The notes under the pieces were generated by a model. That model was not told the DNA's origin. It worked only from the letters and a program-made list of their open reading frames with translations, and did not search any database. 64,000 bases of DNA from Candidatus Melainabacteria bacterium. GTDB taxonomy: Bacteria; Cyanobacteriota; Vampirovibrionia; 2-02-FULL-35-15. Shown here piece by piece: positions 1-42,236 of the stretch. The first letter of the stretch is position 1. Each line of letters starts with the position of its first letter. Location of the stretch: the NCBI GenBank assembly GCA_023250195.1, contig JAHFBF010000001.1, forward strand, positions 1 through 64,000, in the 5' to 3' direction. The position numbers were made by a program, and so were the translations under genes.

Positions 1-486
1 CAGCACTTCTTCTGGCGGTTCCTCTGGCGCTGCCTGCAATGTTGCTCAAGTAGCTACCTGCTGTTCAACTAATCTTTGCGGAGTTAATCCTCTTGACCCT
101 TGTCGATGTACCAGCGGGGGTAATTGTTCTACTACTATTACTCAACAATGTACTTCCGGTGGCAGCACTTCTTCTGGCGGTTCCTCTGGCGCTGCCTGCA
201 ATGTTGCTCAAGTAGCTACCTGCTGTTCAACTAATCTTTGCGGAGTTAATCCTCTTGACCCTTGTCGATGTACCAGCGGGGGTAATTGTTCTACTACTAT
301 TACTCAACAATGTACTTCCGGTGGCAGCACTTCTTCTGGCGGTTCCTCTGGCGCTGCCTGCAATGTTGCTCAAGTAGCTACCTGCTGTTCAACTAATCTT
401 TGCGGAGTTAATCCTCTTGACCCTTGTCGATGTACCAGCGGGGGCAATTGTTCTACTACTATTACTCAACAATGCACTTCCGGTGG
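1..486 (+). repeat. Three near-identical 162 bp tandem repeats (array 1)
   Basis: Units start at 1, 163 and 325, an exact 162 bp period (54 codons), in the coding frame of the giant surface protein. The three units differ at only one or two positions (for example GGGGGTAAT versus GGGGGCAAT in the third). More copies probably lie left of the window edge. The near identity implies recent expansion or gene conversion, and the array may be collapsed in a short-read assembly. Confidence 0.97.
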
Positions 487-3400
487 CGGCACTTCAAGCT
501 CAAGTGGTAGTTCAATATTCTGCTCAAGTGGATCTCTCTGCACATCAGGACTTGTCCCAAATTGTCCAAGTGATACTACTCTATTCTTCTGTAACATGGA
601 TGAACCATGCTGTCTAAACAGTCAATCAATCTGTAACCCACCAGATACACCTGCTTGTATAGCTCCATCAGGCAGCTCATCATCAAGTGGCTCAGTCCGT
701 GCTCCATCATGTCCAACACTTGAAAATCTCTTTACTGCACCAGGTGGAGAATCCTGCAATATTACTCAAGACGGAACAGTAAAAGTACCAATACTTGAAT
801 CCAAAGAAATTAATTCTGGAATAGCACCACTTGAATCCCATCTGGCATTACTTGCAATTAAACGAAATCAACAAACTGGATTTATTGAGGATGTTATCCT
901 GCTTGAAGATATTCCAACAGACTATGCAGATCAGGATTGTCCTTCTTCTTTATACGCAAGCTCAGGTAGTAATTCCTCTGTAAAAATCAGAGCCCCTCTT
1001 GCCGGTTCTATTGCTATTACCGCATGCGGCACAACGATAGCAGTTGCCGATAAGTTATATAAGAAAAATATCAGAACCTATGGCATTGACTTTGGTCTTG
1101 CCAAGAACAAAGCTACTAAACTAGCAGATCTAGCAAATCGTGATGGGTTATTAATAGGATCTAACTCAGTCGTAAAACACAAGCTAAAAGGCTCTGACAC
1201 TGATACATTTGCACTAAATAATCTAAATATTTTAAACTTAAATTTAGCTGCAGAACATGACCCAATAATGTTAACGACCTCGGATGAAGGTAATTACTTT
1301 GAATCATTTATATCAGGTCTTGGCATAAGCAGAAATAATGTTGTAATAGCTGGTATTGCAAAGAGATTAAGCAGCAGTCAAAGAAACCTACTAAATGAAA
1401 ACACTACAGCCCTCTCAGGGAAGATAGTTACATTTGGCTTAACTAGCGAAGTACCACCAATAGCATGTTGTAACTTGAGAGAGTGTTATATTTCAAGTCT
1501 TACACCTGCAATATCCGGTAACTCAGGATTTATAAATATTTCAGGTGGTGGAAATATTACAAATGGTCTGGGCGGATTTGTAAAACAAAATAGATACGGA
1601 GAAATTGCAGTTCAAAAATCTGCAACCAGTAATCAAGGAGCTGGAGTTGTTACAATCCACGGCTCAGATACTATATTCGGTTTTGGATTTACTGAAACCT
1701 CTGCTGGAATGATAAGTATAAACTCAGATGTCACCACTTCTTCAGTAAGTGCAGGATCAAGTGTCCAGGCAGTGTTGCAAGGACCAATCGCTGAGGTTAG
1801 TTACAATAACGGATCTTCTGACACTTTATATTTTGCATCTGTAAGCAATTTAAGTGTAAATAATGATAGTAACAGACCTGCCGTAAAAACATTTACCATA
1901 CAAAATATTCCAAGCACAAATAGCCTCGGACAAATTCAGGAAGTACCAGACAGCACTCTTCAGTTAAAGAAATCTGACTTGCCAAGTGCAAATCAAACTG
2001 CAAGTAATATAATACTTCCAACCAACTACAGTGATCTTAATTTTGGACCTGATGCACAATACTTTGGTGCTGCAATTAATAACAATCAATCTACACAAAG
2101 AGCAAATCCAGTTATTTACTCTGAATTCTTCAATGGACAAATACAAAAGAATGTATCCCCTTCGGGCGGTTTAATCCCTGGTTTAATTTCTCCAAATACA
2201 CCATACACCTACGAAAGTGATAATGAAAATTATTCATTATTTAAGTTTGATAATTCTCCTCCTGAAGGAACATTCTATTATGCTATAGCTGCAAATATTT
2301 CGAAGAGTAAGCCACCATCCGATGATACTTCGACAAACTCACTTACTATATTCATATTCAATAAGAAGCCAGACATAAATAATACGAGCCCAAGAACTGT
2401 TGCAAAACTAACACAAAGCGGTACCAGTGGAACGTTGGATCTTGGCACAGTACTTGCCGGGGATGCAAATAAAAACATAACAATTGCTGATGCAGCAATT
2501 TCAAGAGGCATCTTATTTATCTCTTACTTAACACCTGATACAAATAATCAGGTCCAGGGTTTTGTAAGAGCATTTGATCTAACCAGAAGAAGCTCTGAAT
2601 CTGAACCATTTACCGATCATATAATAGCAAAAGGACCTCCAGCTCAAGCCACAATTACAGCTACAGATGGTTCAGGAAGTATAATTAGAAAAGTTGCAGG
2701 ACAAATTGTAATTAACCCATTAACAAAGACATTGTTCTTAGTCGACAAATACGGTACAAATACAATTCAATCATTTGCAATTGATGAATTTGCAAACAGA
2801 GTTGATTCAAAAATATGTCCACTAATCAAGAACGGTCCTACCGTACAATTTGGTTTACCTTTAAATCCAAATGAAGGTTATTTTGCAGTTACTTCAGCAA
2901 AATTAACAAATGACGGTAAGTATTTATTTGTGGTTAGCACAAACTGTTCCCCAGGTGGAAATCAGGCAAAAGTTTATGCCTTTGCAACAAATCAAGTTGC
3001 CAGAGACTGCTCAACATTACCAGTAGTCACTGAACAGGAGACTGTTTCAAATGTAAGTGAGATAGATCTTGCAAAAACCTGCATTGTAAGTGGAACATCT
3101 ACGACTACATCATCTTCCAGCAGTTCCTCCGGTGGTGGTTCCTCTGGTACTGCCTGTGATATCCCTGCAATAGCTACTTGCTGTTCAAATAATCTCTGTG
3201 GAGTTAATCCTCTTGACCCTTGTAGATGTACCAGCGGTGGCAATTGTTCTACTACTATTACTCAACAATGTACTTCCGGCAGCACTTCCTCTGGCGGCGG
3301 TTCTTCTGGCGCTTCATGCAATGTTGCTAACGTAGCTACTTGCTGTTCAAATAATCTCTGTGGAGTTAATCCTCTTGACCCTTGTAGATGTACCAGCGGT

Positions 3401-6400
3401 GGTAATTGTTCTACTACTATTACTCAACAATGTACTTCCGGCAGCACTTCCTCCGGCGGCGGTTCTTCTGGCGCTTCATGCAATGTTGCTAGTGTAGCTA
3501 CTTGCTGCTCAAACAATCTCTGTGGAGTTAATCCTCTTGACCCTTGTAGATGTACCAGCGGCGGTAATTGTTCTACTACTATTACTCAACAATGTACTTC
3601 CGGCAGCACTTCCTCCGGCAGCGGTTCTTCTGGCACTTCATGCAATGTTGCTAACGTAGCTACTTGCTGTTCAACTAATCTCTGTGGAGTTAATCCTCTT
3701 GACCCTTGTAGATGTACCAGCGGCGGTAATTGTTCTACTACTATTACTCAACAATGTACTTCCGGCAGCACTTCCTCCGGCGGCGGTTCTTCTGGCACTT
3801 CATGCAATGTTGCTAACGTAGCTATCTGCTGTGCAAATAATATTCCTACTTGCGGAGTTAATCCTGCTGACCCTTGTAGATGTACTGGTCCTGGCAACTG
3901 TAGTAGTGTCTGCATTTCCAGTGGTTCTATTTCGAGTACTTCTAGTTCAGGCAGTTCAACTTCCAGCTCTTCTGGCATAGCAACCACATTCTGCGTTGGA
4001 GGTATTCCAAATTGCGGAGCAGGGAGAATTTATGTCTGTGCTAATGCTCAACCATGTTGTGCCGGTCCTACTCCTGGTGAAGCTGGCTGTATATTGGGCA
4101 GTGGATGTAATGGTAATGGCGGCAATTGTCAACAAATTCCTTCATCCTGTCGTCAAAATTCTGACTGCGCTGCTCTGACAGATATCACAAGATGTCTTGA
4201 TGCCCGTTGTGATAATGGAGTATGCGGACAAAGATCAACCTGTCCAGCACCAAATTCATGTGTCAACGGGAATTGTGTAGGAGGAGCATCCGGTGGTGGC
4301 TCATCTTTCTCTGGCTCTTCCAGTTCTTCCTCTAGTGGTACATCTAAATCCTCCAGTTCTTCCAGCGGCTTACCAGTCCTGAATATTGACATCCTTGCAA
4401 CAGCTGCTGTTACAACTCTGCCAACAGTATTTAACATAGTTAAATTACTTGAAGATCTAAATCTAAAAGATACGGGCACAGTATTTAAAATCTTAGGAGA
4501 CAGAGTTCCTCTGTTTAATAAATGGCTAAACCAATCTATTGGCAAAGAGACCTTTATTGGAAGTTTAATTGCTGGCGGAAAAAGCTATATAGGATTAAAA
4601 CTTAGTCAGAATGTAAATCTTGCTCAGGATGAAATTTCTCTGCTCACCTTCCCTGTTAAGTCAAATGCAGACAACAAGACATATAACACCTCAACAGAAG
4701 TCATTTCATATGATCCCGCTACAAAAGATTTACTCTTAAAGATTCAACTTCCTGACGAAATACCGCCAGGTAATGCATCTTTAGTTATAACCAGCAATAA
4801 GGATGGAAATGCAAGATTTGTTTCTAAAGCAGACATCTCTATACAACCAAGGGTTCTTGCATCAATAAACAAGCAAGCTGTTGACAAGCCAATTATTAGA
4901 AAAGTAAAACTAACTGAGATTCTCAACAAACAAAATATTAATCCAAACAAGAAACAATACTTACTCACAATAAGAGGAAGTAATTTCATGAAGAGCATGA
5001 TTACCATTAATAATCAGATAGTTAGATCCCCTGTTCCAAATCAGCCATTCACCTTACTTACCTTTGCAAACAAAAACAAAATTATCTTCAGAAAGATTAA
5101 AGTTCTACAAAACCCATCTAACCTAACAAAGACTAAACTGAAGGTTAGACTTGAATATGACATTTCCAGTTCAGCAACTCCTAACGATGTCAGATTCTTT
5201 ACCATAAGCACTCTCAGTGGTCAGATCACAGGCAAAACTACTTTTAACAGTACAGCTAAACCTAATAAAAACACAAGTAACAATACAAAGACAAATCCCC
5301 CAAATAATCCTGGAAGTAAAACGCTATCGACAGACCAAACTACTACTAATAACAGTACAGATAGCAGCACACAGACAAACCCTGTGAACAAACCACCGGA
5401 TAATCCTGGAAGCAAAACACTATCAACTGACCAGACTATAACTACTACTTCTCCAAACAATGGATCAGCTGCAATTGTTTTAGCACCTGTTACATCTTCA
5501 AATTCAGGCAATCAGTTTATCGGTAGACCAGCTGAATTTGGCAGCATAGCCGGCAAAACATCAAGCACTTCTTCATCAATCAATTCATTAAGTGGCTCTA
5601 TACAAATAAATGCTAATAAATTTAACCCGCAAAATACACAAACAAACAAACAACTTAAATTACCTTTAGATTCCATCCCCCCCCCAATTAATAACACTGA
5701 TCGCCTACAAGCAAATCCTATTTCACGAAAACAAGACACTCCGGAAATAAAACCGGCTCCTGCAGAAACCCTGCCGCCTAAAGCGGATGCCTCGTCAGAT
5801 ATAAACATTCAAGCTCTTAATTTAAATGGACCAAATCTAGCAATTGAAACCCCAACAATATCTCTTATTTCATTCAGTAAACAAACACCTGAAACTACAG
5901 ATATGGGGGCTTCTAAACAAAAAGTTATACCCGCAAACCAATCACCAACACAGACTTCTGAAACACATGGAATTATAAAATCAGGTTTCAGTGGTTACGC
6001 TATAAAACTAAAAGATGGGGTCAAACTTAAAGAAAAAGATTTCAACAATATTATTTACCTGGTTATAGACTCCAAAAAGAAAGTCACTGTAATACCAGGC
6101 AGTACCCTGGAAATAAAATCCAACCAGTTAATTGCAAAGCTTTCATTCCCTGAAACTATAAGTAATGGAGTTGCAACTCTGATAACAGTACTAAATAGAG
6201 GTGAAGACAAAAAAGAAGTTTTATCAAAAGGAACAGTAAGACTTTTTAACTCTTATGACTTTGAAAATGTTGGTGAAGATGGGAATAAAATGGGGTTACC
6301 AAAGGTCAGGCAGATTGAGGGAGAAATAATCAGCCCTTCTAAAAAAGGAGAAAAAATAATAAACCTGACTATATTTGGAGAAAATTTTGCTTCAAGATTA

Positions 6401-6715
6401 ATAAAAATAAATGGAAAAGAATTTATTGCAGAATCATCCAAATCACATACTTTTGTTTCATTTACTGATGAACATAATATTGAAATTTTAAGAACAAGTG
6501 TTTCAAATAAAGGAAAGCAGATTTTACTTACCTTAAAATTTACAGGTGATGATATATCAAAAGAATCATTTACAATAAGCACTCCAAAGGGACAATGCTT
6601 TACAAACAAAATGGAAATTAAATTATTATCTAAGCCCCCGGGTAAAAACGTTATCTTAGATCTTGACAATACTGAAACAGATAAAGCAGAAACAAAAAAG
6701 GATTCTACACATTAA
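2..6715 (+). CDS. Giant Cys-rich, Ser/Gly-linked surface protein (5' end missing)
   Basis: The reading frame is open from the left edge, so the first ATG at 596 is internal; 2237 residues are visible and the true start lies outside the window. Order seen: three 54-residue Cys repeats (1-486), a long region resembling a beta-propeller (best seen at about 2700-3000, with strand-like FVVS/YAFA patterns), five more Cys repeats (3155-3915), another Cys-rich stretch with many CxxxxC spacings (3990-4290), Ser/Gly linkers, then two copies of a beta-rich module (about 4570-5250 and 5985-6640) joined by an Asn/Thr/Pro-rich linker. Each Cys repeat has eight cysteines, which suggests disulfide-stabilised units outside the cytoplasm. 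No C-terminal membrane anchor or LPXTG is visible. I do not recognise a family; an adhesin or stalk-like surface role is inference. Confidence 0.85.
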   Translation, partial: STSSGGSSGAACNVAQVATCCSTNLCGVNPLDPCRCTSGGNCSTTITQQCTSGGSTSSGGSSGAACNVAQVATCCSTNLCGVNPLDPCRCTSGGNCSTTITQQCTSGGSTSSGGSSGAACNVAQVATCCSTNLCGVNPLDPCRCTSGGNCSTTITQQCTSGGGTSSSSGSSIFCSSGSLCTSGLVPNCPSDTTLFFCNMDEPCCLNSQSICNPPDTPACIAPSGSSSSSGSVRAPSCPTLENLFTAPGGESCNITQDGTVKVPILESKEINSGIAPLESHLALLAIKRNQQTGFIEDVILLEDIPTDYADQDCPSSLYASSGSNSSVKIRAPLAGSIAITACGTTIAVADKLYKKNIRTYGIDFGLAKNKATKLADLANRDGLLIGSNSVVKHKLKGSDTDTFALNNLNILNLNLAAEHDPIMLTTSDEGNYFESFISGLGISRNNVVIAGIAKRLSSSQRNLLNENTTALSGKIVTFGLTSEVPPIACCNLRECYISSLTPAISGNSGFINISGGGNITNGLGGFVKQNRYGEIAVQKSATSNQGAGVVTIHGSDTIFGFGFTETSAGMISINSDVTTSSVSAGSSVQAVLQGPIAEVSYNNGSSDTLYFASVSNLSVNNDSNRPAVKTFTIQNIPSTNSLGQIQEVPDSTLQLKKSDLPSANQTASNIILPTNYSDLNFGPDAQYFGAAINNNQSTQRANPVIYSEFFNGQIQKNVSPSGGLIPGLISPNTPYTYESDNENYSLFKFDNSPPEGTFYYAIAANISKSKPPSDDTSTNSLTIFIFNKKPDINNTSPRTVAKLTQSGTSGTLDLGTVLAGDANKNITIADAAISRGILFISYLTPDTNNQVQGFVRAFDLTRRSSESEPFTDHIIAKGPPAQATITATDGSGSIIRKVAGQIVINPLTKTLFLVDKYGTNTIQSFAIDEFANRVDSKICPLIKNGPTVQFGLPLNPNEGYFAVTSAKLTNDGKYLFVVSTNCSPGGNQAKVYAFATNQVARDCSTLPVVTEQETVSNVSEIDLAKTCIVSGTSTTTSSSSSSSGGGSSGTACDIPAIATCCSNNLCGVNPLDPCRCTSGGNCSTTITQQCTSGSTSSGGGSSGASCNVANVATCCSNNLCGVNPLDPCRCTSGGNCSTTITQQCTSGSTSSGGGSSGASCNVASVATCCSNNLCGVNPLDPCRCTSGGNCSTTITQQCTSGSTSSGSGSSGTSCNVANVATCCSTNLCGVNPLDPCRCTSGGNCSTTITQQCTSGSTSSGGGSSGTSCNVANVAICCANNIPTCGVNPADPCRCTGPGNCSSVCISSGSISSTSSSGSSTSSSSGIATTFCVGGIPNCGAGRIYVCANAQPCCAGPTPGEAGCILGSGCNGNGGNCQQIPSSCRQNSDCAALTDITRCLDARCDNGVCGQRSTCPAPNSCVNGNCVGGASGGGSSFSGSSSSSSSGTSKSSSSSSGLPVLNIDILATAAVTTLPTVFNIVKLLEDLNLKDTGTVFKILGDRVPLFNKWLNQSIGKETFIGSLIAGGKSYIGLKLSQNVNLAQDEISLLTFPVKSNADNKTYNTSTEVISYDPATKDLLLKIQLPDEIPPGNASLVITSNKDGNARFVSKADISIQPRVLASINKQAVDKPIIRKVKLTEILNKQNINPNKKQYLLTIRGSNFMKSMITINNQIVRSPVPNQPFTLLTFANKNKIIFRKIKVLQNPSNLTKTKLKVRLEYDISSSATPNDVRFFTISTLSGQITGKTTFNSTAKPNKNTSNNTKTNPPNNPGSKTLSTDQTTTNNSTDSSTQTNPVNKPPDNPGSKTLSTDQTITTTSPNNGSAAIVLAPVTSSNSGNQFIGRPAEFGSIAGKTSSTSSSINSLSGSIQINANKFNPQNTQTNKQLKLPLDSIPPPINNTDRLQANPISRKQDTPEIKPAPAETLPPKADASSDINIQALNLNGPNLAIETPTISLISFSKQTPETTDMGASKQKVIPANQSPTQTSETHGIIKSGFSGYAIKLKDGVKLKEKDFNNIIYLVIDSKKKVTVIPGSTLEIKSNQLIAKLSFPETISNGVATLITVLNRGEDKKEVLSKGTVRLFNSYDFENVGEDGNKMGLPKVRQIEGEIISPSKKGEKIINLTIFGENFASRLIKINGKEFIAESSKSHTFVSFTDEHNIEILRTSVSNKGKQILLTLKFTGDDISKESFTISTPKGQCFTNKMEIKLLSKPPGKNVILDLDNTETDKAETKKDSTH
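3155..3915 (+). repeat. Five 162 bp tandem repeats (array 2), last one diverged
   Basis: Conserved Cys codons open units at 3155, 3317, 3479, 3641 and 3803, again a 162 bp period. Units 2-4 are nearly identical. Unit 1 differs at its start (CDIPAIATCC) and unit 5 is diverged with a small insertion (ANNIPTCGVNPADPC). Array 2 encodes the same 54-residue motif as array 1 but has its own shared variants (TGTAGATGT for TGTCGATGT), so each array has homogenised locally. Confidence 0.97.
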
Positions 6716-6917: not shown

Positions 6918-8540
6918 TTGTCAAAGAAAGATTTTGGAAATACCGCTGTTCTAGAAAAAAAAGAGAGTAGAAATTTGGCTAAAAAAAATTCAATGTTACG
7001 AGTTAAAGCAATGGAGTCTGTAACTGTTGATGAACACTCTGCACATGGAGCTCATGGACTGATAAGAACATTAGGCGCATGGGATCTGATTAATCTTGGA
7101 ATTGGATGTATTATCGGTACAGGAATTTTTGTTTTAACCGGAATAGCTGCAAGCAATTATGCAGGACCAGGTGTTTTCTTTTCCTTTATATTTGCGGGGA
7201 CTGCATGTGCACTGGCAGCACTTGTTTACAGCGAGTTTGCATCTCTTGTCCCACTTTCAGGAAGCGCATACACTTATGTCTATGTCACTCTGGGAGAACT
7301 GGCTGCCTGGTTAATTGGCTGGAATTTATTGCTTGAATATCTAGTTTCAGTTTCTGTAGTAGCTATCGGGTGGAGTGCTTACTTCTGTAATATCATGAAA
7401 AACTTTGGAGTAACTCTTCCTGCAGTTTTAACCGCTTCTCCGGGAACATCTGATGTCCCTGGAGCTATTATGAATCTGCCTGCTCTTGCCATAACAATCG
7501 CTCTTACCTTTCTTGCAATTGCAGGAATAAAAAACTCAACTGTTTTTAATAATATTATTGTCACTATAAAAGTTTCAGTCGTTTTGTTTTTTATTGCATT
7601 TGGGGCTTTTCACTTACATCCTGAATACTGGCATCCTTTTATCCCGCCAAGAATAGCCATACCCACAGGACATACAATGGATATTTTACATTTACCCTTC
7701 AATGAATTCCTGGTAAAGCTGGTTCATGGAACACTTGGGGTTCATAACGATCTTGTCTACCATTACGGCTGGGAAGGAGTTTTAACTGCAGCAGGAATTG
7801 TGTTTTTTGCATACATTGGTTTTGATGCAGTTACTACAGTAGCTGAAGAATCTAAAAACCCACAAAGAGATTTACCCATAGGAATTCTTGGAAGTCTGGT
7901 AATTTGCACTGTTTTATATTTAGTAGTTTCTCTCATTTTAACAGGACTTATACCTGTTACCATTGACGGCAAACCAAACCCTGCACTTACAGGACATGAA
8001 GCCGGAGCAGCTCTGTCGGTAGCCTTTACTGCACTTGGACATAAATGGGCAGCACTTATAATAGGTTTCGGTGCCCTTTGCGGAATGACAAGTATTATTC
8101 TAGTTATGATTGTAGGTCAGTCAAGAATTTTATTTTCAATGTCACGCGATGGGCTTCTGCCAAAATTCTTCAGTGCAATTCATCCAAAATATAGAACTCC
8201 ATATGTCTCTTCTTTAATTACAGGGTTACTTTCAGGAATAATTGCAGCATTTATTCCGATACTTACAGTAGCCGAGCTTACGAGCATCGGCACACTGGCT
8301 GCATTTGTTTTTGTATGCATTGCAGTTTTGATTTTAAGATCTACAAGACCTGACTTAAAAGCAAAATTCAGGTGCCCATGGATGCCGCTTACAGGAATTC
8401 TTGGAGTTATAGTAAATGTTCTTTTAATGACAGGCTTACCGACAGCTACATGGTTACGTTTTGTAGTATGGATGGTAATTGGACTTGCAATATATTACCT
8501 ATATGGTTTCTGGTTCAGCAAGATGAGGGTGGAAAAATAG
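6918..8540 (+). CDS. APC-superfamily amino acid permease (cationic amino acid transporter type)
   Basis: 540 residues. Probable inner-membrane transporter of amino acids by proton symport or exchange. The N-terminal 50 residues are soluble and charged. They are followed by about 12 hydrophobic segments, starting with a first helix carrying the unwound GIGCIIGTGIF motif that in APC transporters contacts the substrate amino and carboxyl groups. FVFVCIAVLILRSTRPD near the C-terminus is typical of the CAT/YfnA subgroup. The start is TTG at 6918, chosen because GGAG (6908-6911) sits six bases upstream; no ATG fits better. It is monocistronic and convergent with the next gene. Substrate cannot be read from the sequence; a cationic or branched amino acid is a family-level guess. 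Confidence 0.88.
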   Translation: MSKKDFGNTAVLEKKESRNLAKKNSMLRVKAMESVTVDEHSAHGAHGLIRTLGAWDLINLGIGCIIGTGIFVLTGIAASNYAGPGVFFSFIFAGTACALAALVYSEFASLVPLSGSAYTYVYVTLGELAAWLIGWNLLLEYLVSVSVVAIGWSAYFCNIMKNFGVTLPAVLTASPGTSDVPGAIMNLPALAITIALTFLAIAGIKNSTVFNNIIVTIKVSVVLFFIAFGAFHLHPEYWHPFIPPRIAIPTGHTMDILHLPFNEFLVKLVHGTLGVHNDLVYHYGWEGVLTAAGIVFFAYIGFDAVTTVAEESKNPQRDLPIGILGSLVICTVLYLVVSLILTGLIPVTIDGKPNPALTGHEAGAALSVAFTALGHKWAALIIGFGALCGMTSIILVMIVGQSRILFSMSRDGLLPKFFSAIHPKYRTPYVSSLITGLLSGIIAAFIPILTVAELTSIGTLAAFVFVCIAVLILRSTRPDLKAKFRCPWMPLTGILGVIVNVLLMTGLPTATWLRFVVWMVIGLAIYYLYGFWFSKMRVEK

Positions 8541-9886: not shown

Positions 9887-11386
9887 ATGGACAAAAATAA
9901 AAAATATATTTTAAGTCTGGACCAAGGGACTACAAGCTCACGTGCACTACTTATAGATGAATCTGGAAAAGTAGTTGGAAAATCACAAAAAGAGTTCAAA
10001 CAAATTTTCCCAAAGCCGTCGTGGGTAGAACATGATCCGCTTGAAATCTGGAACAGCCAGCTCGAAACCGCAAAAGATGCAATATTAAAATCAAACATTA
10101 ATGCAAAGGATATTCATGCAATTGGAATTACAAATCAAAGGGAAACAATTGTTGCATTTGACAGCAAGACAGGAAAGCCTGTTTACAACGCAATAGTCTG
10201 GCAGTGCAGGCGTACAGCAGCTTACTGCGATGAACTGAAACCCAGATACAAAACAAAAATAAAAGAAAAGACCGGGCTTGAAATAGATGCTTACTTTAGT
10301 GCATCTAAAATGAAATGGATATTAGAAAACATACCTGCTGCCGTAGAGACTTGTCGCAGCAAGTCTCTACGATTTGGAACCATTGATTCCTGGTTAATAT
10401 ACAATCTAACTGGTGGAAAATCTTTTTACACAGATCCATCAAATGCATCCCGTACAATGCTTTATAACATAAAAGAAAACAAGTATGATAAAGAACTTTT
10501 AGAAATTTTTGGGATAGAAGAATGGATGCTGCCGGAAGTCATGCATTCAAATAGAGATTTTGGTTTAACTGATAAAAAACATTTTGGTGTAGAGGTTCCT
10601 ATTCATGCTGTTCTCGGAGATCAGCAGGCAGCACTGTTTGGTCAGTGCTGTTTTAAAGAAGGTGATTTAAAAGTTACTTACGGAACCGGGGGATTTTTAC
10701 TTATAAACATTGGCAGTCAGTTTAAATTGAATGAAAATTTTTTAACTACGATTGCCTGGAGTATTAATGATAAGGACATGCCATGGCATGCCCCAACATA
10801 TGCTTTTGAAGGTTCTACATTTATCTCAGGCGCTATTATTCAATGGCTTCGCGATGGACTTGGAATTATCAAAGATTCTTCTGAATGTGAAAAGATGGCA
10901 ATTGGTCTAAATAACAATGAGGGAGTTTATCTGGTCCCTGCTCTTGTGGGACTTGGTGCACCGCACTGGGATCAAGGCGCAAGGGGAACAATTTTAGGAC
11001 TTACAAGAGGTTCAACAAAAGCTCATATAGTTCGCGCAGCAATAGAATCTATGGCATATCAGATAGCTGATTTAATCCTCCCTGTTAAAAAAGAGCTGCC
11101 AAAAGATACATTTATAAAAGCTGACGGCGGGGCTGCAAAAAATAATTTTCTTTTACAGTTTCAGGCAGATCTTTTACAAATGCCACTTACAAGATCATCT
11201 CAGGCTGAAGCAACTGCACTTGGCATAGCCTATCTGGCAGGATTAAAACTTGGATTTTGGAAGTCATTTGAAGATATACAAAAGACCTGGCATCCTGATG
11301 AACTCTTTATTCCAAGAACCAATAGGGATAAAGAATATTCACTTTGGAAAGAGGCTGTTAAAAGAGCATTAAAGTGGGAACAATAA
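9887..11386 (+). CDS. glpK: Glycerol kinase
   Basis: 499 residues, full family length. Phosphorylates glycerol to sn-glycerol 3-phosphate with ATP in the cytoplasm. FGGY-kinase signatures are clear: DQGTTSSRA near the N-terminus (phosphate-binding loop), GITNQRET, GDQQAALFGQ, and GGAAKNNFLLQFQAD in the C-terminal ATP-binding half. A 28 bp GTAG palindrome lies in frame inside the gene and encodes residues 153-162 (VETCRSKSLR), just before the conserved FGTIDSWL. From memory the E. coli protein has about the same number of residues here, so the element seems to have replaced rather than lengthened this surface segment. No glpF or glpD is adjacent, and the upstream 286 bp (9601-9886) are AT-rich with no other gene seen. 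Confidence 0.97.
   Translation: MDKNKKYILSLDQGTTSSRALLIDESGKVVGKSQKEFKQIFPKPSWVEHDPLEIWNSQLETAKDAILKSNINAKDIHAIGITNQRETIVAFDSKTGKPVYNAIVWQCRRTAAYCDELKPRYKTKIKEKTGLEIDAYFSASKMKWILENIPAAVETCRSKSLRFGTIDSWLIYNLTGGKSFYTDPSNASRTMLYNIKENKYDKELLEIFGIEEWMLPEVMHSNRDFGLTDKKHFGVEVPIHAVLGDQQAALFGQCCFKEGDLKVTYGTGGFLLINIGSQFKLNENFLTTIAWSINDKDMPWHAPTYAFEGSTFISGAIIQWLRDGLGIIKDSSECEKMAIGLNNNEGVYLVPALVGLGAPHWDQGARGTILGLTRGSTKAHIVRAAIESMAYQIADLILPVKKELPKDTFIKADGGAAKNNFLLQFQADLLQMPLTRSSQAEATALGIAYLAGLKLGFWKSFEDIQKTWHPDELFIPRTNRDKEYSLWKEAVKRALKWEQ
10343..10370 (+). repeat. GTAG palindrome inside glpK
   Basis: 28 bp: GTAGAGACTTG, six-base centre, CAAGTCTCTAC (11 bp perfect arms). Nearly the same sequence as the holB element at 59712-59739. 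Read in the GTA-GAG frame, which has no stop. Confidence 0.93.
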
Positions 11387-11453: not shown

Positions 11454-14400
11454 ATGAGCAAAAGTTTTTTAGATCTCTGCAAAGAAAAAATTGTATTCTT
11501 TGATGGTGCAATGGGGACCTCTATTCAGACTTACCCACTTACTTTAGATGATTTTGAAGGTCTGGAAGGATGCAATGAAATCTTAGTAAAAACAAAACCT
11601 GAAATTATAAAAGAAATTCATTCGTCTTTTTTAAAAGTTGGCTGTGACGTGATTGAAACAAACAGTTTTGGTTCAAGCAGTATTGTACTTGCTGAATATG
11701 ATATAAAAGACAGAGCATATGAATTAAATTTTCAATCAGCAAAACTTGCAAAAGAAGTCGCAGATGATTTTAATGCTTTAAGCCCTAGATTTGTAGCAGG
11801 TTCCATTGGTCCTACTACAAAACTCCCTACCCTTGGACATATAAATTATGAAGACATGAAAAAATCGTTTTATACACAGGCCAGCGGTCTACTGGATGGC
11901 GGAGTTGATTTGTTTCTGCTTGAGACCTGCCAGGATATCCTGCAGATTAAAGCCGGTCTTAGTGGAATCTTTAAGGTAATGGAAGAAAAGAAAAAAAGAA
12001 TTCCTATTATGGTTCAAATAACTATTGAAAGAACAGGAACAATGCTTGTAGGCTCAGACATTGCATCTGCATTCTGTGCAATTGAACCATATGAAATAGA
12101 TATGATAGGAATGAACTGTGCTACCGGACCGCTTGAGATGTCAGATCACATAAGATATTTATGTGAAGTAAGCAGGTTACCGATTTCCTGTATCCCAAAT
12201 GCAGGAATTCCTGAAAATATAGGCGGCAAAAGTCATTATCATTTATCACCTGAAGAATTTGCCAAAACACTTTTTCACTTTACAAACGATTTAGGAGTAA
12301 GTATCGTCGGAGGATGCTGTGGTACGACTCCGGAGCATTTAAAAGCACTTATTAACTTAACAGGAAACAAAGAACCAAAAAAAAGAAATCCAAAGTATAT
12401 AAACTCTGCAAGCAGCCTCTATAATTCTGTTCCACTGAGCATTGATCCTCCTCCTGTCTTTGTAGGAGAAAGAACCAATGCAAATGGCAGTAAGCTTTTT
12501 CGTGACCTTTTAGCTAAAGAAGATTTTGATGGAATGATAAATTTGGCAAAAGGGCAGCTTGAAGAAGGAGCACACCTTCTTGATGTTTGTACAGCCTATG
12601 TAGGCAGAGATGAAACAAAAGATATGACTGAGTACATAAAAAGATTAAATACTCAGGTAAATATTCCTTTGATGATTGACTCTACTGAAGCTCCTGTAAT
12701 TCAAAAATCACTTGAGCTGATTGGAGGAAAAGCGCTAATAAACTCCATAAACCTTGAAGACGGTGAAGAAAGAATAAAAAAAGTCTGCCCAATGGCAAAA
12801 GAATTTGGCTCAGCTTTGGTTGCGCTGACAATAGACGAAGAGGGCATGGCTAAAACAGCTGAAAAGAAATTTGAAATTGCAAAGAGGATTTATAACCTTG
12901 CTGTTGAAAAATATAAGATTCCCGGGAAAGATCTGATTTTTGACACGCTTACCTTTACTCTTGGAAGCGGCGATGAAGAGTTCAGAAAAGCAGGGATTGA
13001 AACAATTGAAGGAATTAAATTAATAAAAAAATCTATTCCTGAAGTAAAAACTGTGCTTGGAATAAGCAACATTTCATTTGGGCTTTCTCCTGAATCAAGG
13101 CATGTTTTAAACTCCATGTTTATGAATGAAGCTGTAGCAGGCGGGCTGGACATGGCTATTGTAAATGCAAAAACAATCCTTCCTTTGTATAAAATTCCTG
13201 AAGAGCAGAGACAAACAGCCCTGGATTTAATTTATGACAGAAGAAAAGAAAATTACGATCCTCTTCATAAATTTATGTCCCTTTTTGAAAATACAAAAAA
13301 AGATACGAGCCGAAAAATTAAAGAAGAAAAACAATTATCTATTGAAGAAACACTAAAGAAAAGAATTGTAGACGGGAATAAAGCCGGAGTAACAAAAGAC
13401 TTAGAAGAAGCGCTTAAAAAATATTCACCACTTGACATCATAAATAATATTTTGCTTGATGGAATGAAAACAGTGGGTGATCTATTTGCCTCTGGTGAAA
13501 TGCAGTTACCGTTTGTTTTACAGTCAGCAGAAACAATGAAAGCTTCTGTAGCATATTTAGAGCCCTTTATGGAGAAAAAAGATATTAAAAAAAGAGGGAA
13601 AATTGTTTTAGCTACTGTAAAGGGGGATGTTCACGACATTGGTAAAAATCTTGTTGATATTATTCTTACAAACAATGGCTATGAAGTTTTTAATCTTGGC
13701 ATTAAGCAGCCAATTGAAAGTATTATAAATAAAGCTCTTGAGACAGATACAGATGTTATCGGAATGAGCGGACTGTTAGTAAAATCTACTCAAATTATGA
13801 AAGAAAATCTGGAAATCCTCAATGAAAGAAATATTACAATTCCTGTAATTCTCGGTGGTGCAGCACTAACCCGAAAATTTGTAGAAGAAGACTGCCAGAA
13901 CACTTACAATGGTAAAGTTTTTTACGGTTCAGATGCATTTAGTGATCTTAGATTTATGGGAGAAATCTTTAATAACAAAGAAGCAGTAAGCCCTAAAAAA
14001 TCTCCAAAACGTGAAAGAGTCAGTGAGATTATTTCGGGCTCAAGCCTGCAGAATGACATTGAAACACAACACTCAACTATCAGCACTATTATTAGAAGTC
14101 CAATTATAGAACCATGTCTTCAAATACCAAAAATCCCTTTTTACGGTTCCAAAGTACTTGACCAGATTTCTCTTGATGCAATTAATCCTTATATTAACGA
14201 AACTGCTCTTATAGTAGGTCAATGGCAGGTTAAAAAAGGAAAGCTGCCAAAAGAAGAATATGAAAAGATTTTAAAAGAAAGGATTTATCCTGTTCTTGAA
14301 AACCTTAAAAAATTATCCAAGGAGCAAAATTTATTAATTCCAAAAACTGTATATGGCTATTATTACTGTGTATCTGAAGGAAATGATTTGATTATTCTGG

Positions 14401-14927
14401 ATGAAGACAAAAAAACAGAAGTAAAGAGATTTACTTTCCCAAGACAAAAAGACAGAGACAGGCTTTGCCTTTCTGATTATTTTATAAGTAGGGATGAAAT
14501 GAGTAAGAGGGGGGTGGATGTAGTAGCTTTTCATGCAGTAACTGTAGGTGAACAGGCAAGTGAATATTCAAAGAATTTATTTAACGAAAATAAGTACACT
14601 GATTACCTTTATTTCCATGGGTTAAGTGTAGAAACTACAGAAGCATTAGCTGAATGGTCACATAAAAAGATCAGAACAGAACTGGATATTCACCACGATG
14701 ACGAAAAAGAAATGAAAAAACTTCTCGGGCAGGGATATCACGGAGCACGTTATAGCTTTGGATATCCTGCATGTCCCTATTTGGAAGATCAAGACAAAAT
14801 GTTTGAATTAATAAGACCTGAAAGAATAGGAATTTCTTTGTCGGAAAGCTTTCAACTCCACCCAGAACAAAGCACATCAGCAATCATCGTTCATCACCCA
14901 CAAGCTAAATATTTTAATGTTAGCTAG
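11454..14927 (+). CDS. metH: Cobalamin-dependent methionine synthase
   Basis: 1157 residues, slightly shorter than the roughly 1230 of E. coli MetH but with all four modules. Residues 1-310 are the homocysteine domain with zinc ligands in GMNCATG and GGCCGTTPEH. About 330-600 is the pterin (methyl-THF) domain starting VGERTNANGS. About 640-870 is the cobalamin domain with cap and DVHDIGKN, the DxHxxG motif that gives the axial His. About 910-1157 is the activation domain with the SAM-binding RYSFGYPACPYLED motif. It transfers methyl from 5-methyl-THF to homocysteine. It starts 67 bp after glpK; no cobalamin riboswitch fits in that gap. The stop overlaps that of the convergent downstream gene by a few bases. 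Confidence 0.97.
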   Translation: MSKSFLDLCKEKIVFFDGAMGTSIQTYPLTLDDFEGLEGCNEILVKTKPEIIKEIHSSFLKVGCDVIETNSFGSSSIVLAEYDIKDRAYELNFQSAKLAKEVADDFNALSPRFVAGSIGPTTKLPTLGHINYEDMKKSFYTQASGLLDGGVDLFLLETCQDILQIKAGLSGIFKVMEEKKKRIPIMVQITIERTGTMLVGSDIASAFCAIEPYEIDMIGMNCATGPLEMSDHIRYLCEVSRLPISCIPNAGIPENIGGKSHYHLSPEEFAKTLFHFTNDLGVSIVGGCCGTTPEHLKALINLTGNKEPKKRNPKYINSASSLYNSVPLSIDPPPVFVGERTNANGSKLFRDLLAKEDFDGMINLAKGQLEEGAHLLDVCTAYVGRDETKDMTEYIKRLNTQVNIPLMIDSTEAPVIQKSLELIGGKALINSINLEDGEERIKKVCPMAKEFGSALVALTIDEEGMAKTAEKKFEIAKRIYNLAVEKYKIPGKDLIFDTLTFTLGSGDEEFRKAGIETIEGIKLIKKSIPEVKTVLGISNISFGLSPESRHVLNSMFMNEAVAGGLDMAIVNAKTILPLYKIPEEQRQTALDLIYDRRKENYDPLHKFMSLFENTKKDTSRKIKEEKQLSIEETLKKRIVDGNKAGVTKDLEEALKKYSPLDIINNILLDGMKTVGDLFASGEMQLPFVLQSAETMKASVAYLEPFMEKKDIKKRGKIVLATVKGDVHDIGKNLVDIILTNNGYEVFNLGIKQPIESIINKALETDTDVIGMSGLLVKSTQIMKENLEILNERNITIPVILGGAALTRKFVEEDCQNTYNGKVFYGSDAFSDLRFMGEIFNNKEAVSPKKSPKRERVSEIISGSSLQNDIETQHSTISTIIRSPIIEPCLQIPKIPFYGSKVLDQISLDAINPYINETALIVGQWQVKKGKLPKEEYEKILKERIYPVLENLKKLSKEQNLLIPKTVYGYYYCVSEGNDLIILDEDKKTEVKRFTFPRQKDRDRLCLSDYFISRDEMSKRGVDVVAFHAVTVGEQASEYSKNLFNENKYTDYLYFHGLSVETTEALAEWSHKKIRTELDIHHDDEKEMKKLLGQGYHGARYSFGYPACPYLEDQDKMFELIRPERIGISLSESFQLHPEQSTSAIIVHHPQAKYFNVS

Positions 14928-32500: not shown

Positions 32501-33457
32501 AAAAAAGGGAATGATACAGAAGCAGAACATTATCTACAAAAGGCAAAAGGGGCTCCAGCAAGTTCAGTTTATGACTATCTTGCATTAGGTCAGCTAAGAG
32601 CAACTAATGATGATATAGATGGTGCAATCAGTGCATTTAGAATAGGAACACAGGTTAGTTCGAGCAACGATACAGCCTGGTCAAAACTAGGTGAAGCTGT
32701 TTTCTCAAAAGCTCAAAAAACAAATAACAAAGCTACCTTTAATGAAGCTGCTTCATACTTCAAAAAAGCAAGAGAACTGTCTCCTTACAATGTAGAAGCC
32801 TGGGCTGGAGAAGGGAATGTTTACTTCAGCTTTGCCAGCCGCTTTAAAGATTTTGAATATATTCCTCTCGCAGAAGAAGCTTATTTAAATGCTTTCGGGG
32901 CTGATCTAAACTATTGGCCTGCTAGATTGAATTATGCAAAAATTCTTTATGGACAGGGACCCACTCGTTACGCAGAAGCCTTAAAACACTTTTATCACAT
33001 AATCGGAAGACTAAATCCACAAAACTCAGAAGCAAGATTTTTAGCTGCTAAGATTCTTCAAAGTCAGGGGAATCTAATTCCTGCATACCAACAGTATCAG
33101 GGAGCACTGCAACTCGGACTTGAAGAAGGTCAAGTTGAAGATGCAAAACAACAGCTTCAAATAATTCAGGAAGAAGTTCAAAGACAACAACAACCTCAAC
33201 CTCAAATGGTACAGCCACCACCACAGCCACAACAGCAGCAACAGCAGCAGCCACCACCACAGCCACAACAGCAGCAGCAACAGCAGCAGCCACCACCACA
33301 AGCTCAGTCACAAACCGGACAACAACAGCAAAACCCTGAGCAGGAGCAAAATGAGGAAGAAAAATTAAAAAGGCTTCTTCAAATTCAGGGAGATATAAAA
33401 GAAGAGCCAAAAAATAACAATCCGGCTCTTGATGTTACTCCAAAGAAAACCCAGTAG
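29555..33457 (+). CDS. Membrane-embedded spermidine synthase-like fusion with TPR and Gln/Pro-rich tail
   Basis: 1300 residues; good AGGAG site before the ATG. Residues about 25-230 and 265-500 are two related blocks of membrane helices: SGVSGLIYEVVWTRMLTYVF in the first parallels SGFVALTFEVLWTRTLTLVF in the second. About 560-790 is a PABS (polyamine synthase) fold with VVGLGSGCTTGSVV for decarboxylated SAM, DGRNYL and IISQPADPWVNG. About 920-1190 is helical TPR-like repeat sequence (AISAFRIGTQVS, SEARFLAAKILQSQG). The end is a Gln/Pro run. Fused multi-pass spermidine synthases are known but their function is mostly unproven. An odd Pro/Gly-rich insertion (EPPPDKSPLGGNGSP) interrupts the PABS fold. 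Confidence 0.82.
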   Translation: MANVSAPTLEKPSNQKKADPGSYNFIYSIVFGCFLLSGVSGLIYEVVWTRMLTYVFGGTTLAVSTVLTAFLGGLALGSYLGGKFIDRVKKPLLAYGILELAIGIYGLLVPVIFSEHFLSPIWQTVVQMFESVQFVSYLVRFLISVALLGIPTVLMGATLPVLSRYLTNVRSDITSFNVGALYTINTVGAIIGTFLSGFIFLPTVGVNSTVYIAAALNLILALAVLLLSSVNKRVQADTPNYDSSESSGDLETLISNSQENIPSKLIKLSMLAFAVSGFVALTFEVLWTRTLTLVFGSSTYAFSTMLVTFLAGLAIGTAIMTKLQEKIERPVFWVGSILCAIAVSGFLTACMFNELPWMFLAQAQKLPDDASTSWFLLTMNRFIISSAVMFPPTILSGMIFPLVIRIYASRPDHIGESVGKLYSLNTLGCILGSFTCGFIFVPFFGIFGSGIQTTTKLTILIALAMGLYLIYNDVINNDSLSEKQVKISTSWIYIGIAAGLIGNLLLMPAWDKSIMTTGVAIYHSLSYKTLKKEQFFNTFKLDNSKEKIKFYKEGLTTVVTITADENGNTTLLKNNGKVDAGVPTDGDGPSQADMVTQVLLGQLPLLLHNGEPETALVVGLGSGCTTGSVVRYPTIKSVKVCELEKAVIDGDKFFEPPPDKSPLGGNGSPLNKTRNPLAERIQAIHTDGRNYLLTTKEKFDIIISQPADPWVNGASQLFTKEFWELGAKHLNENGLFCEWIQLYSITPEYLGVLVNSFKEAFGKYENGKKVSDGYVYLFRPGLAGEILLIGSNEPLDINVKQIEDRIKTNFTAESKTASPLVVRTLDDLARISIHTSVDIVSQLLLGTEQVTKFAETQTEQVPRLKSLPLNKKVNTDDNVIIEFEAPKKLHLFYAPIGDNLNSIAGSTDGNVEQYLKNFGETKQQQGSFLARLAIAHVKKASNFDPSKSLQDPNLKIAEHLSKKAIELNPSVETYVANYLLSLKKGNDTEAEHYLQKAKGAPASSVYDYLALGQLRATNDDIDGAISAFRIGTQVSSSNDTAWSKLGEAVFSKAQKTNNKATFNEAASYFKKARELSPYNVEAWAGEGNVYFSFASRFKDFEYIPLAEEAYLNAFGADLNYWPARLNYAKILYGQGPTRYAEALKHFYHIIGRLNPQNSEARFLAAKILQSQGNLIPAYQQYQGALQLGLEEGQVEDAKQQLQIIQEEVQRQQQPQPQMVQPPPQPQQQQQQQPPPQPQQQQQQQQPPPQAQSQTGQQQQNPEQEQNEEEKLKRLLQIQGDIKEEPKNNNPALDVTPKKTQ
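33185..33305 (+). repeat. CAG/CCA trinucleotide-rich tandem repeat
   Basis: Two imperfect copies of a 36-39 bp unit of CCA and CAG/CAA codons, coding alternating PPPQPQ and QQQQQQQ stretches. Likely to vary in length by slippage. Confidence 0.85.
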
Positions 33458-40944: not shown

Positions 40945-42236
40945 AAGCAGAAATCATATCAATTGGGACAGAACTTTTGCTTGGTCAAACAATTAATACC
41001 AATGCATCTTTTCTTGCAAATGAACTGCAAAGTTTAGGAATTGACTCATACTTTCAGACAACAGTAGGAGACAATACTGAACGCATTCATGAAGTACTTG
41101 AATTAGCTCTACAAAGAGCAGACATAATTATTACTACAGGCGGTTTAGGACCGACACCAGACGACTTAACCCATGAAGCTGTTTATAGTTTTTTTAATAC
41201 AAAACCATCTCTGGATAAAAAGATTTTAAAGCAAATTGAAAACAAATTTCACTTGAGGGGTTACAAAAAAATGCCAAAAATGAATAAAAAGCAGGCATAC
41301 AAATCAAAAAATGCGCAATGGATTTCAAATAAACTCGGCACTGCAAATGGCATTATCTGGAAAATCAGAGGTCAGAGGTCAGAGATCAGAGATCAGAAAA
41401 AAAAAATCTCACCTCTCACCTCTCATCTCTCGCCTCTCATTCTGACTTTCCCCGGTGTACCAAAAGAGATGTACCAGATGTGGAATGATACTGCTAAACC
41501 ATACCTTAAGAAGATCTCTACAAAAAATGTAATCTTTTCAACTACCCTGAAATTCACCGGGATCGGAGAGTCAGCTCTTGCTGAGAAAATAAACAAATTT
41601 TTCAACCTAAAAAATCCTACAGTAGCACCATATGCAAGTCTCGGAGAAGTAAAAATAAGAATAACTGCAAAAGCTAAGACAAATAAAATTGCAAATAAAT
41701 TAGTTGCCCCTGTTGTAAAATCTATTTTGAAAAAGACAAAAAAATATTTTTTCGGCATCAATGATGAGACTTTGGAAGAATTATTAGCTAAAGCGTTAAT
41801 AAGAAAAAAGAAAACTATTTCAATTGCAGAATCATGTACCGGTGGATTTTTATCTAAACGATTAACTGATATCCCTGGAAGTTCTAAGTATATAAAATCA
41901 AATGTTATAACTTACTCAAATGAAGCTAAGAATAGATTACTTTGCATACCAAATGAAATATTAAATAAATACGGTGCGGTAAGTCCAGAAATTGCAACAT
42001 TAATGGCAAAAGGAATTAAAAAATTAAGTGGTTGTGACGTTGGAATTTCAATTACTGGTATAGCTGGACCAAGCGGTGGTTCAAAAGAAAAACCTATTGG
42101 GCTTGTTTATTTTGGACTTGCAAAAGGTAATAAAATTAAAACACAAAAAATGTTATTTGGTTCAAATTCAAGCCGGGATGAGGTTCGTTTTCTTGCTACG
42201 CAGTTTGCTTTAAATTGGCTGAGGAAAGAGATTTAG
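40941..42236 (+). CDS. cinA: CinA: damage-inducible protein / NMN amidohydrolase, with in-frame insertion
   Basis: 431 residues. Residues 1-200 are the MoCF-like (COG1058) domain: ISIGTELLLGQTINTNA, TTGGLGPTPDDLT and FPGVPKEM. About 270-430 are the PncC domain with SIAESCTGGFLSKRLTDIPGS and GISITGIAGPSGG. CinA acts in pyridine nucleotide salvage (NMN to NaMN) and is linked to competence. Between GIIWK and LTFPGVP lie about 25 extra residues (IRGQRSEIRDQKKKISPL then TSHLSPLI) encoded by an inverted repeat, where relatives have a short turn. The 3' end overlaps convergent lpxC by 41 bp. Confidence 0.95.
   Translation: MKAEIISIGTELLLGQTINTNASFLANELQSLGIDSYFQTTVGDNTERIHEVLELALQRADIIITTGGLGPTPDDLTHEAVYSFFNTKPSLDKKILKQIENKFHLRGYKKMPKMNKKQAYKSKNAQWISNKLGTANGIIWKIRGQRSEIRDQKKKISPLTSHLSPLILTFPGVPKEMYQMWNDTAKPYLKKISTKNVIFSTTLKFTGIGESALAEKINKFFNLKNPTVAPYASLGEVKIRITAKAKTNKIANKLVAPVVKSILKKTKKYFFGINDETLEELLAKALIRKKKTISIAESCTGGFLSKRLTDIPGSSKYIKSNVITYSNEAKNRLLCIPNEILNKYGAVSPEIATLMAKGIKKLSGCDVGISITGIAGPSGGSKEKPIGLVYFGLAKGNKIKTQKMLFGSNSSRDEVRFLATQFALNWLRKEI
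41365..41446 (+). repeat. Inverted-repeat insertion inside cinA
   Basis: Left arm is repeats of CAGAGGT/CAGAGAT; right arm is the complementary CTCACCTCTCACCTCTCATC type; an A9-10 run lies between. The frame is kept through the element. Confidence 0.85.

Follow-up and report, generated by a model that had tools for sequence, protein, structure and literature searches.

Two arrays of a 54-residue, eight-cysteine unit flank a conserved domain in a giant gene of a Candidatus Melainabacteria bacterium

Results and Discussion

Organization of the locus

The window analysed in this work comprises the first 64,000 nucleotides of contig C6 in the genome of a Candidatus Melainabacteria bacterium, an uncultured organism related to cyanobacteria (G000; seven contigs, 2.21 Mb, 98.9% complete). 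Its first feature is a single ORF (2-6715) that is open from the contig start and constitutes the C-terminal 2237 codons of a giant gene, here called gene B, which is 5'-truncated by the contig end; this ORF and all its parts lie on the + strand. Array 1, formed by at least three units of a 54-residue repeat with eight cysteines, occupies positions 1-490 and is followed by a different eight-cysteine module (IFCSSGSLC..., 506-667), by a conserved domain of about 790 residues (725-3082) that shows identity to the genomes G001 and G003, and by a Ser/Gly-rich linker (3083-3154). Array 2 comes next (3155-3913), and after it lie more Cys-rich modules (TFCVGGIPNC... and CRQNSDC..., 3977-4291) and two conserved C-terminal domains. 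The first of them (4364-5269) is 30-49% identical to the window row in a six-genome alignment, and the limits of the second (5627-6637) were set by a match in G008. The two C-terminal domains (window 4364-6637; L082, L083 and L084) are fused in G000, G001 and G007, whereas in G003, G008 and G010 each has a frame of its own, next to that of the other.

The whole ORF had no match at E 10 in either Pfam or NCBIfam, and a PHROGs search gave one weak match near the ORF end (E 0.0022); among the open-licence PMC papers listed by literature searches, none was recognized as a description of the giant protein. The orthologue of gene B in the congener G001 is a frame of 7102 codons with 342 cysteines, to which the ORF, queried with window 500-6712, is 63% identical over query residues 57-1200 and 55% identical over residues 1293-2067. 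Downstream of gene B in the window are frames (6918-8540, 9887-11386 and 11454-14927) that, judged by eye, we take to encode a permease, a glycerol kinase and a methionine synthase, and similar neighbour frames adjoin the giant gene in G001. Elsewhere in the window, an A run is flanked by two heptamer repeats in back-to-back arrangement (41364-41439), ATCAGAG with 4.9 copies and TCTCACC with 4.7, each being almost an inverted copy of the other, and a low-complexity CAG/CCACCA-rich repeat (33211-33300) lies within an ORF of 1300 codons.

The 54-residue unit and its two arrays

An earlier note on this DNA described two arrays that share a 162-bp unit at an identical period, and two measures agree on this point. 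Tandem Repeats Finder reported a period of 162 at 1-495 (3.1 copies, 99% matches) and at 3171-3885 (4.4 copies, 94% matches), and at an offset of 162 the self-match reached 0.99 for array 1 and 0.95 for array 2, compared with 0.29 in window 6801-64000. The first cysteines of the eight units are found at 35, 197 and 359 in array 1 and at 3155, 3317, 3479, 3641 and 3803 in array 2. Contig C6 starts inside array 1 (the window and the contig share their first base, and bases 1-34 repeat 163-196), so that the upstream edge of this array is not visible and its three units are a minimum imposed by the assembly; the five units counted earlier in array 2 are better described as four near-identical ones plus a divergent one (3803). 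Within the own genome, real units were found in eight places, all of them on contig C6, and one weak unit-like place on contig C1 (E 0.167) contains a stop.

The cysteine order that had been read from the sequence (C, CC, C, CxC, C, C) holds exactly in seven of the eight units, with the spacing C-x7-CC-x4-C-x7-C-x-C-x5-C-x7-C; the last unit (3803) has a two-residue insertion and a shortened end, and yet it carries eight cysteines. Very high identity within each array was also borne out, as units 1 and 2 of array 1 (A1u1 and A1u2) are identical across 162 bases and units 2 and 4 of array 2 (A2u2 and A2u4) differ at two core bases. When units of array 1 are compared with those of array 2, the core (123 bases) shows 7-15 differences and the linker (39 bases) 12-25, in line with the array-specific variants claimed previously. 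The most divergent units are those at the array edges (A2u1, A2u5 and also the linker of A1u3), and the G+C content of the arrays (0.495 and 0.461) is higher than that of the conserved domain (0.372) and of the window (0.347).

A recent expansion or conversion, as the earlier note proposed, agrees with the identical or near-identical units of each array, with the divergent units at the edges and with the fact that two relatives lack the arrays at the orthologous site. The high identity of the units and the array-specific linkers would fit slippage alone, and the repeats might then be inert and neutral, having arisen by slippage in the linker DNA without any function under selection. Nevertheless, all eight units retain their eight cysteines although the linkers vary, and the core differences between A1u1 and either A2u2 or A2u4 are mostly in synonymous codons (5/8 and 5/7 bases, respectively, which are tiny counts), both of which make us regard a purely neutral origin as unlikely. 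Between A1u1 and A2u1, eight of the 15 core differences are nonsynonymous.

The conserved domain and the modules at its sides

The domain enclosed by the arrays shares 77% identity with its counterpart in G001 and 57% with that in G003, and it matches no Pfam family. Over its 792 codons, differences numbered 322 at third positions versus 139 and 96 at the others, and 246 codons were changed synonymously and 185 nonsynonymously; it evolves like coding sequence, which points to a coding region under purifying selection.

What stands directly 3' of this domain differs from genome to genome: the 54-residue array in G000, a 64-residue module (AQAFCNTNNQ) in G001, and two CCSCSDGNLSC modules, with 125 of 144 bases identical, in G003. 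The presence of the same 54-residue unit on either side of the domain could suggest that arrays 1 and 2 are one array split by the insertion of the domain. This reading is already disfavoured and seems to us highly improbable, since in G001 and G003 the domain is found beside other modules, so that the domain would have been here before the unit, barring a loss of the unit in these genomes.

G001 carries the AQAFCNTNNQ module both before and after the conserved domain, with 170 of 192 bases identical (88% at the DNA level) and with 14 synonymous and five nonsynonymous codon changes between the two copies. Within the 21.3-kb gene B of G001, no other Cys-coding self-match between distant places reaches 90 nt and 80% identity; one further self-match is a local near-tandem pair. 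In G003, the modules before and after the domain match each other at 41% across 39 residues; a G001 module from another place does as well, and G003 thus lends no specific support to a copying of modules from one side to the other. Matched modules across the conserved domain in G000 and G001 are thus a lead, drawn from a comparison of three genomes in which the pattern was noticed after the fact. It is conceivable, albeit rather unlikely, that the two linker positions act as paired cassette sites, at which an acquired Cys module would be copied to the other side and unrelated modules would be kept matched in each genome; G000, with its 54-residue arrays, and G001, with its 64-residue module, fit such an arrangement, and G003 does not clearly fit it.

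Relation of the unit to other Cys modules

Another possibility is that the unit derived from other Cys modules of the gene family by losing and gaining one cysteine. The neighbouring module (here 515-667) aligns with it in register at C1, C2, C5, C7 and C8, although no significant similarity between the two was found in profile and shuffle tests: the profile comparison gave a probability of 0.46%, and against 37 modules nothing beat the shuffles (best z 1.4, with 31 of 300 shuffles as good). Such a descent therefore appears improbable. Apparent module matches obtained by blastp without composition correction were set aside, those among the matches listed being largely Ser/Gly linker.

Cys-rich tandem units are likewise found in gene A of the same genome, an upstream giant gene whose Disintegrin-like repeats (PF00200) lie within Ser/Gly/Thr-rich surroundings and are also cut by a contig end. 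Their cysteine spacing (6-5-6-11 in the array on contig C1) differs from that of the 54-residue unit, and the gene A array matches PF00200 with an E value of 2.9e-19, whereas none of the eight 54-residue units matches this family at E 10.

Searches for relatives and known folds

The unit was searched in several collections, from some of which records very close to the own genome may be absent. A tblastn search of GTDB contigs yielded 47 stretches with the pattern and viral contigs yielded 39, none of them confirmed in either case, and no relative was found in plasmids or phages. Using a profile, the 10 other genomes of the family gave a single match of 18 residues in G003 (E 0.68), all further matches being in the own genome, and 382 genomes of the class gave matches in three, the own genome included. 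The other two of these three, G108 with an E value of 1.4e-5 and G138 with one of 0.006, were rejected, as each match lies within a longer ORF in another frame (312 and 569 codons, respectively). Single-sequence matches among 60 relatives (10 genomes including the own, E of at least 0.048 elsewhere) were not accepted as relatives of the unit either; the loci L009, L017 and L018 were translated from them.

The earlier note had also proposed that the repeats may be a new disulfide-rich module and had suggested an HMM search of the 54-residue unit as a check. No significant match was obtained in the libraries searched, and there was no PDB sequence match at E 10, so that nothing in these libraries refutes the proposal; a sub-threshold match keeps a knottin-like fold possible. 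Four of the eight units match the Pfam family UPF0506 (PF11703), with best E values of 0.025-0.03 and 15.2 bits against a curated cut-off of 23.2; the similarity to this small Cys-rich unit is weak and spans unit residues 1-45. UPF0506 is described from flatworms and termed a knottin fold in PMC8400842, and the unit could be a known small disulfide fold of this kind that diverged past recognition, in which case only the host protein would be unusual. AlphaFold gave a mean pLDDT of 54 and a pTM of 0.29 for a single unit and a mean pLDDT of 33 for a context stretch of 1161 residues, and the secondary structure of the unit differs between these two low-confidence models. The score below the cut-off, the lack of a PDB sequence match and a predicted unit without confident structure all speak against a diverged knottin, which we see as possible and yet doubtful. 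Members of UPF0506 are single proteins, unlike the tandem arrays of this bacterium. With different Cys modules standing at the same sites in close relatives, the unit looks like a lineage-specific, recently made part rather than a known domain.

The gene family and the contig ends

When the rest of the ORF was used as query, eight of 60 genomes matched, the own genome included, all of the same family, and in GTDB contigs four related loci were found, all of Candidatus Melainabacteria and one of them RIFCSPLOWO2_02_FULL_35_15. In G001, the conserved middle domain and the C-terminal domains lie in the single 7102-codon frame, whose first 3888 codons encode three Vgb-lyase stretches (PF24684, E 1.3e-131) and He_PIG Ig-like repeats (PF05345). 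Gene B of G000 belongs to the same family of giant mosaic proteins, with which it shares its middle and C-terminal domains, and differs from them in the 54-residue unit, which G001 and the nine other family genomes lack apart from the 18-residue match in G003. The N-terminal 598 residues of the G001 protein have no match in the own genome (the query was the first 2999 residues). A frame of 2315 codons at G000:C5:60901-62073 is 62% identical to the Vgb-type propeller of G001 gene B.

In both G000 and G001, gene A is truncated at a contig end. A single gene spanning the left ends of contigs C1 and C6, arrived at by elimination of contig ends, was rejected because in G003 and G005 gene A precedes a separate gene B that has its own N-terminus. 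The two left ends probably belong to the same locus, and the sequence missing between them would hold the last part of gene A and the first part of gene B.

Other observations concern giant genes and contig ends. Giant proteins of several genomes (G001 gene B at residues 1106 and 5499, G001 gene A, G001 frame X, G002A, G003A, G005A and G007B) share a recurrent short motif, FLDG-x-x-F, which is often followed by I-I-x-V within about 20 residues and often stands shortly before a Cys-rich region. Another giant gene, with a repeat of 303-306 bp (DTTAPTLSTAAVNGTTLTLTYNE...), seems to be split between the right ends of G000 contigs C2 (L029) and C1 (L028), and the right ends of contigs C3 and C6 (L030 and L034) are identical over the last 40 bases, suggesting a shared repeat at the break.

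Possible export and a proposed origin of the arrays

Secretion of the protein, also claimed earlier, is plausible, given a hydrophobic N-terminal segment recognized by eye in the G001 orthologue, the Ser/Gly/Cys composition and a DsbA-like protein; the N-terminus of gene B itself is absent from the window. The own genome contains two PF13462 matches, one of which, with a CPFC motif and a hydrophobic N-terminus, was read as DsbA-like. No VKOR and no DsbB match was found in this genome, so the partner of the DsbA-like protein would be missing or diverged. Judging from the architecture, the most likely role would be surface display and adhesion.

On balance, we hypothesize that the arrays are lineage-specific, disulfide-rich modules, serving as spacers or in binding, within a giant mosaic exported protein, that slippage or conversion raised their number, and that copying carried them from one side of the conserved domain to the other, a reading we consider fairly probable. 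Following export, the cysteines are predicted to pair in the periplasm or outside the cell. Slippage in replication or unequal recombination between the 162-bp units would multiply and homogenize each array, and one array would have seeded the other through gene conversion or a duplication reaching over the conserved domain; multiplication within arrays together with copying across the domain would account for both the identity levels and the positions. The modules, as rigid spacers or binding elements, might be free to change fast, while the conserved and C-terminal domains keep their role.

Since assemblies break in such arrays, proteins of this type are likely undercounted. The unit itself would be an unclassified eight-cysteine scaffold. 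If this hypothesis is true, gene B would be a bacterial case of rapid turnover of small disulfide modules at fixed sites of a giant protein, and the same conserved domain accompanied by different modules in congeners would offer a natural comparison in which module birth and matched copying become testable.
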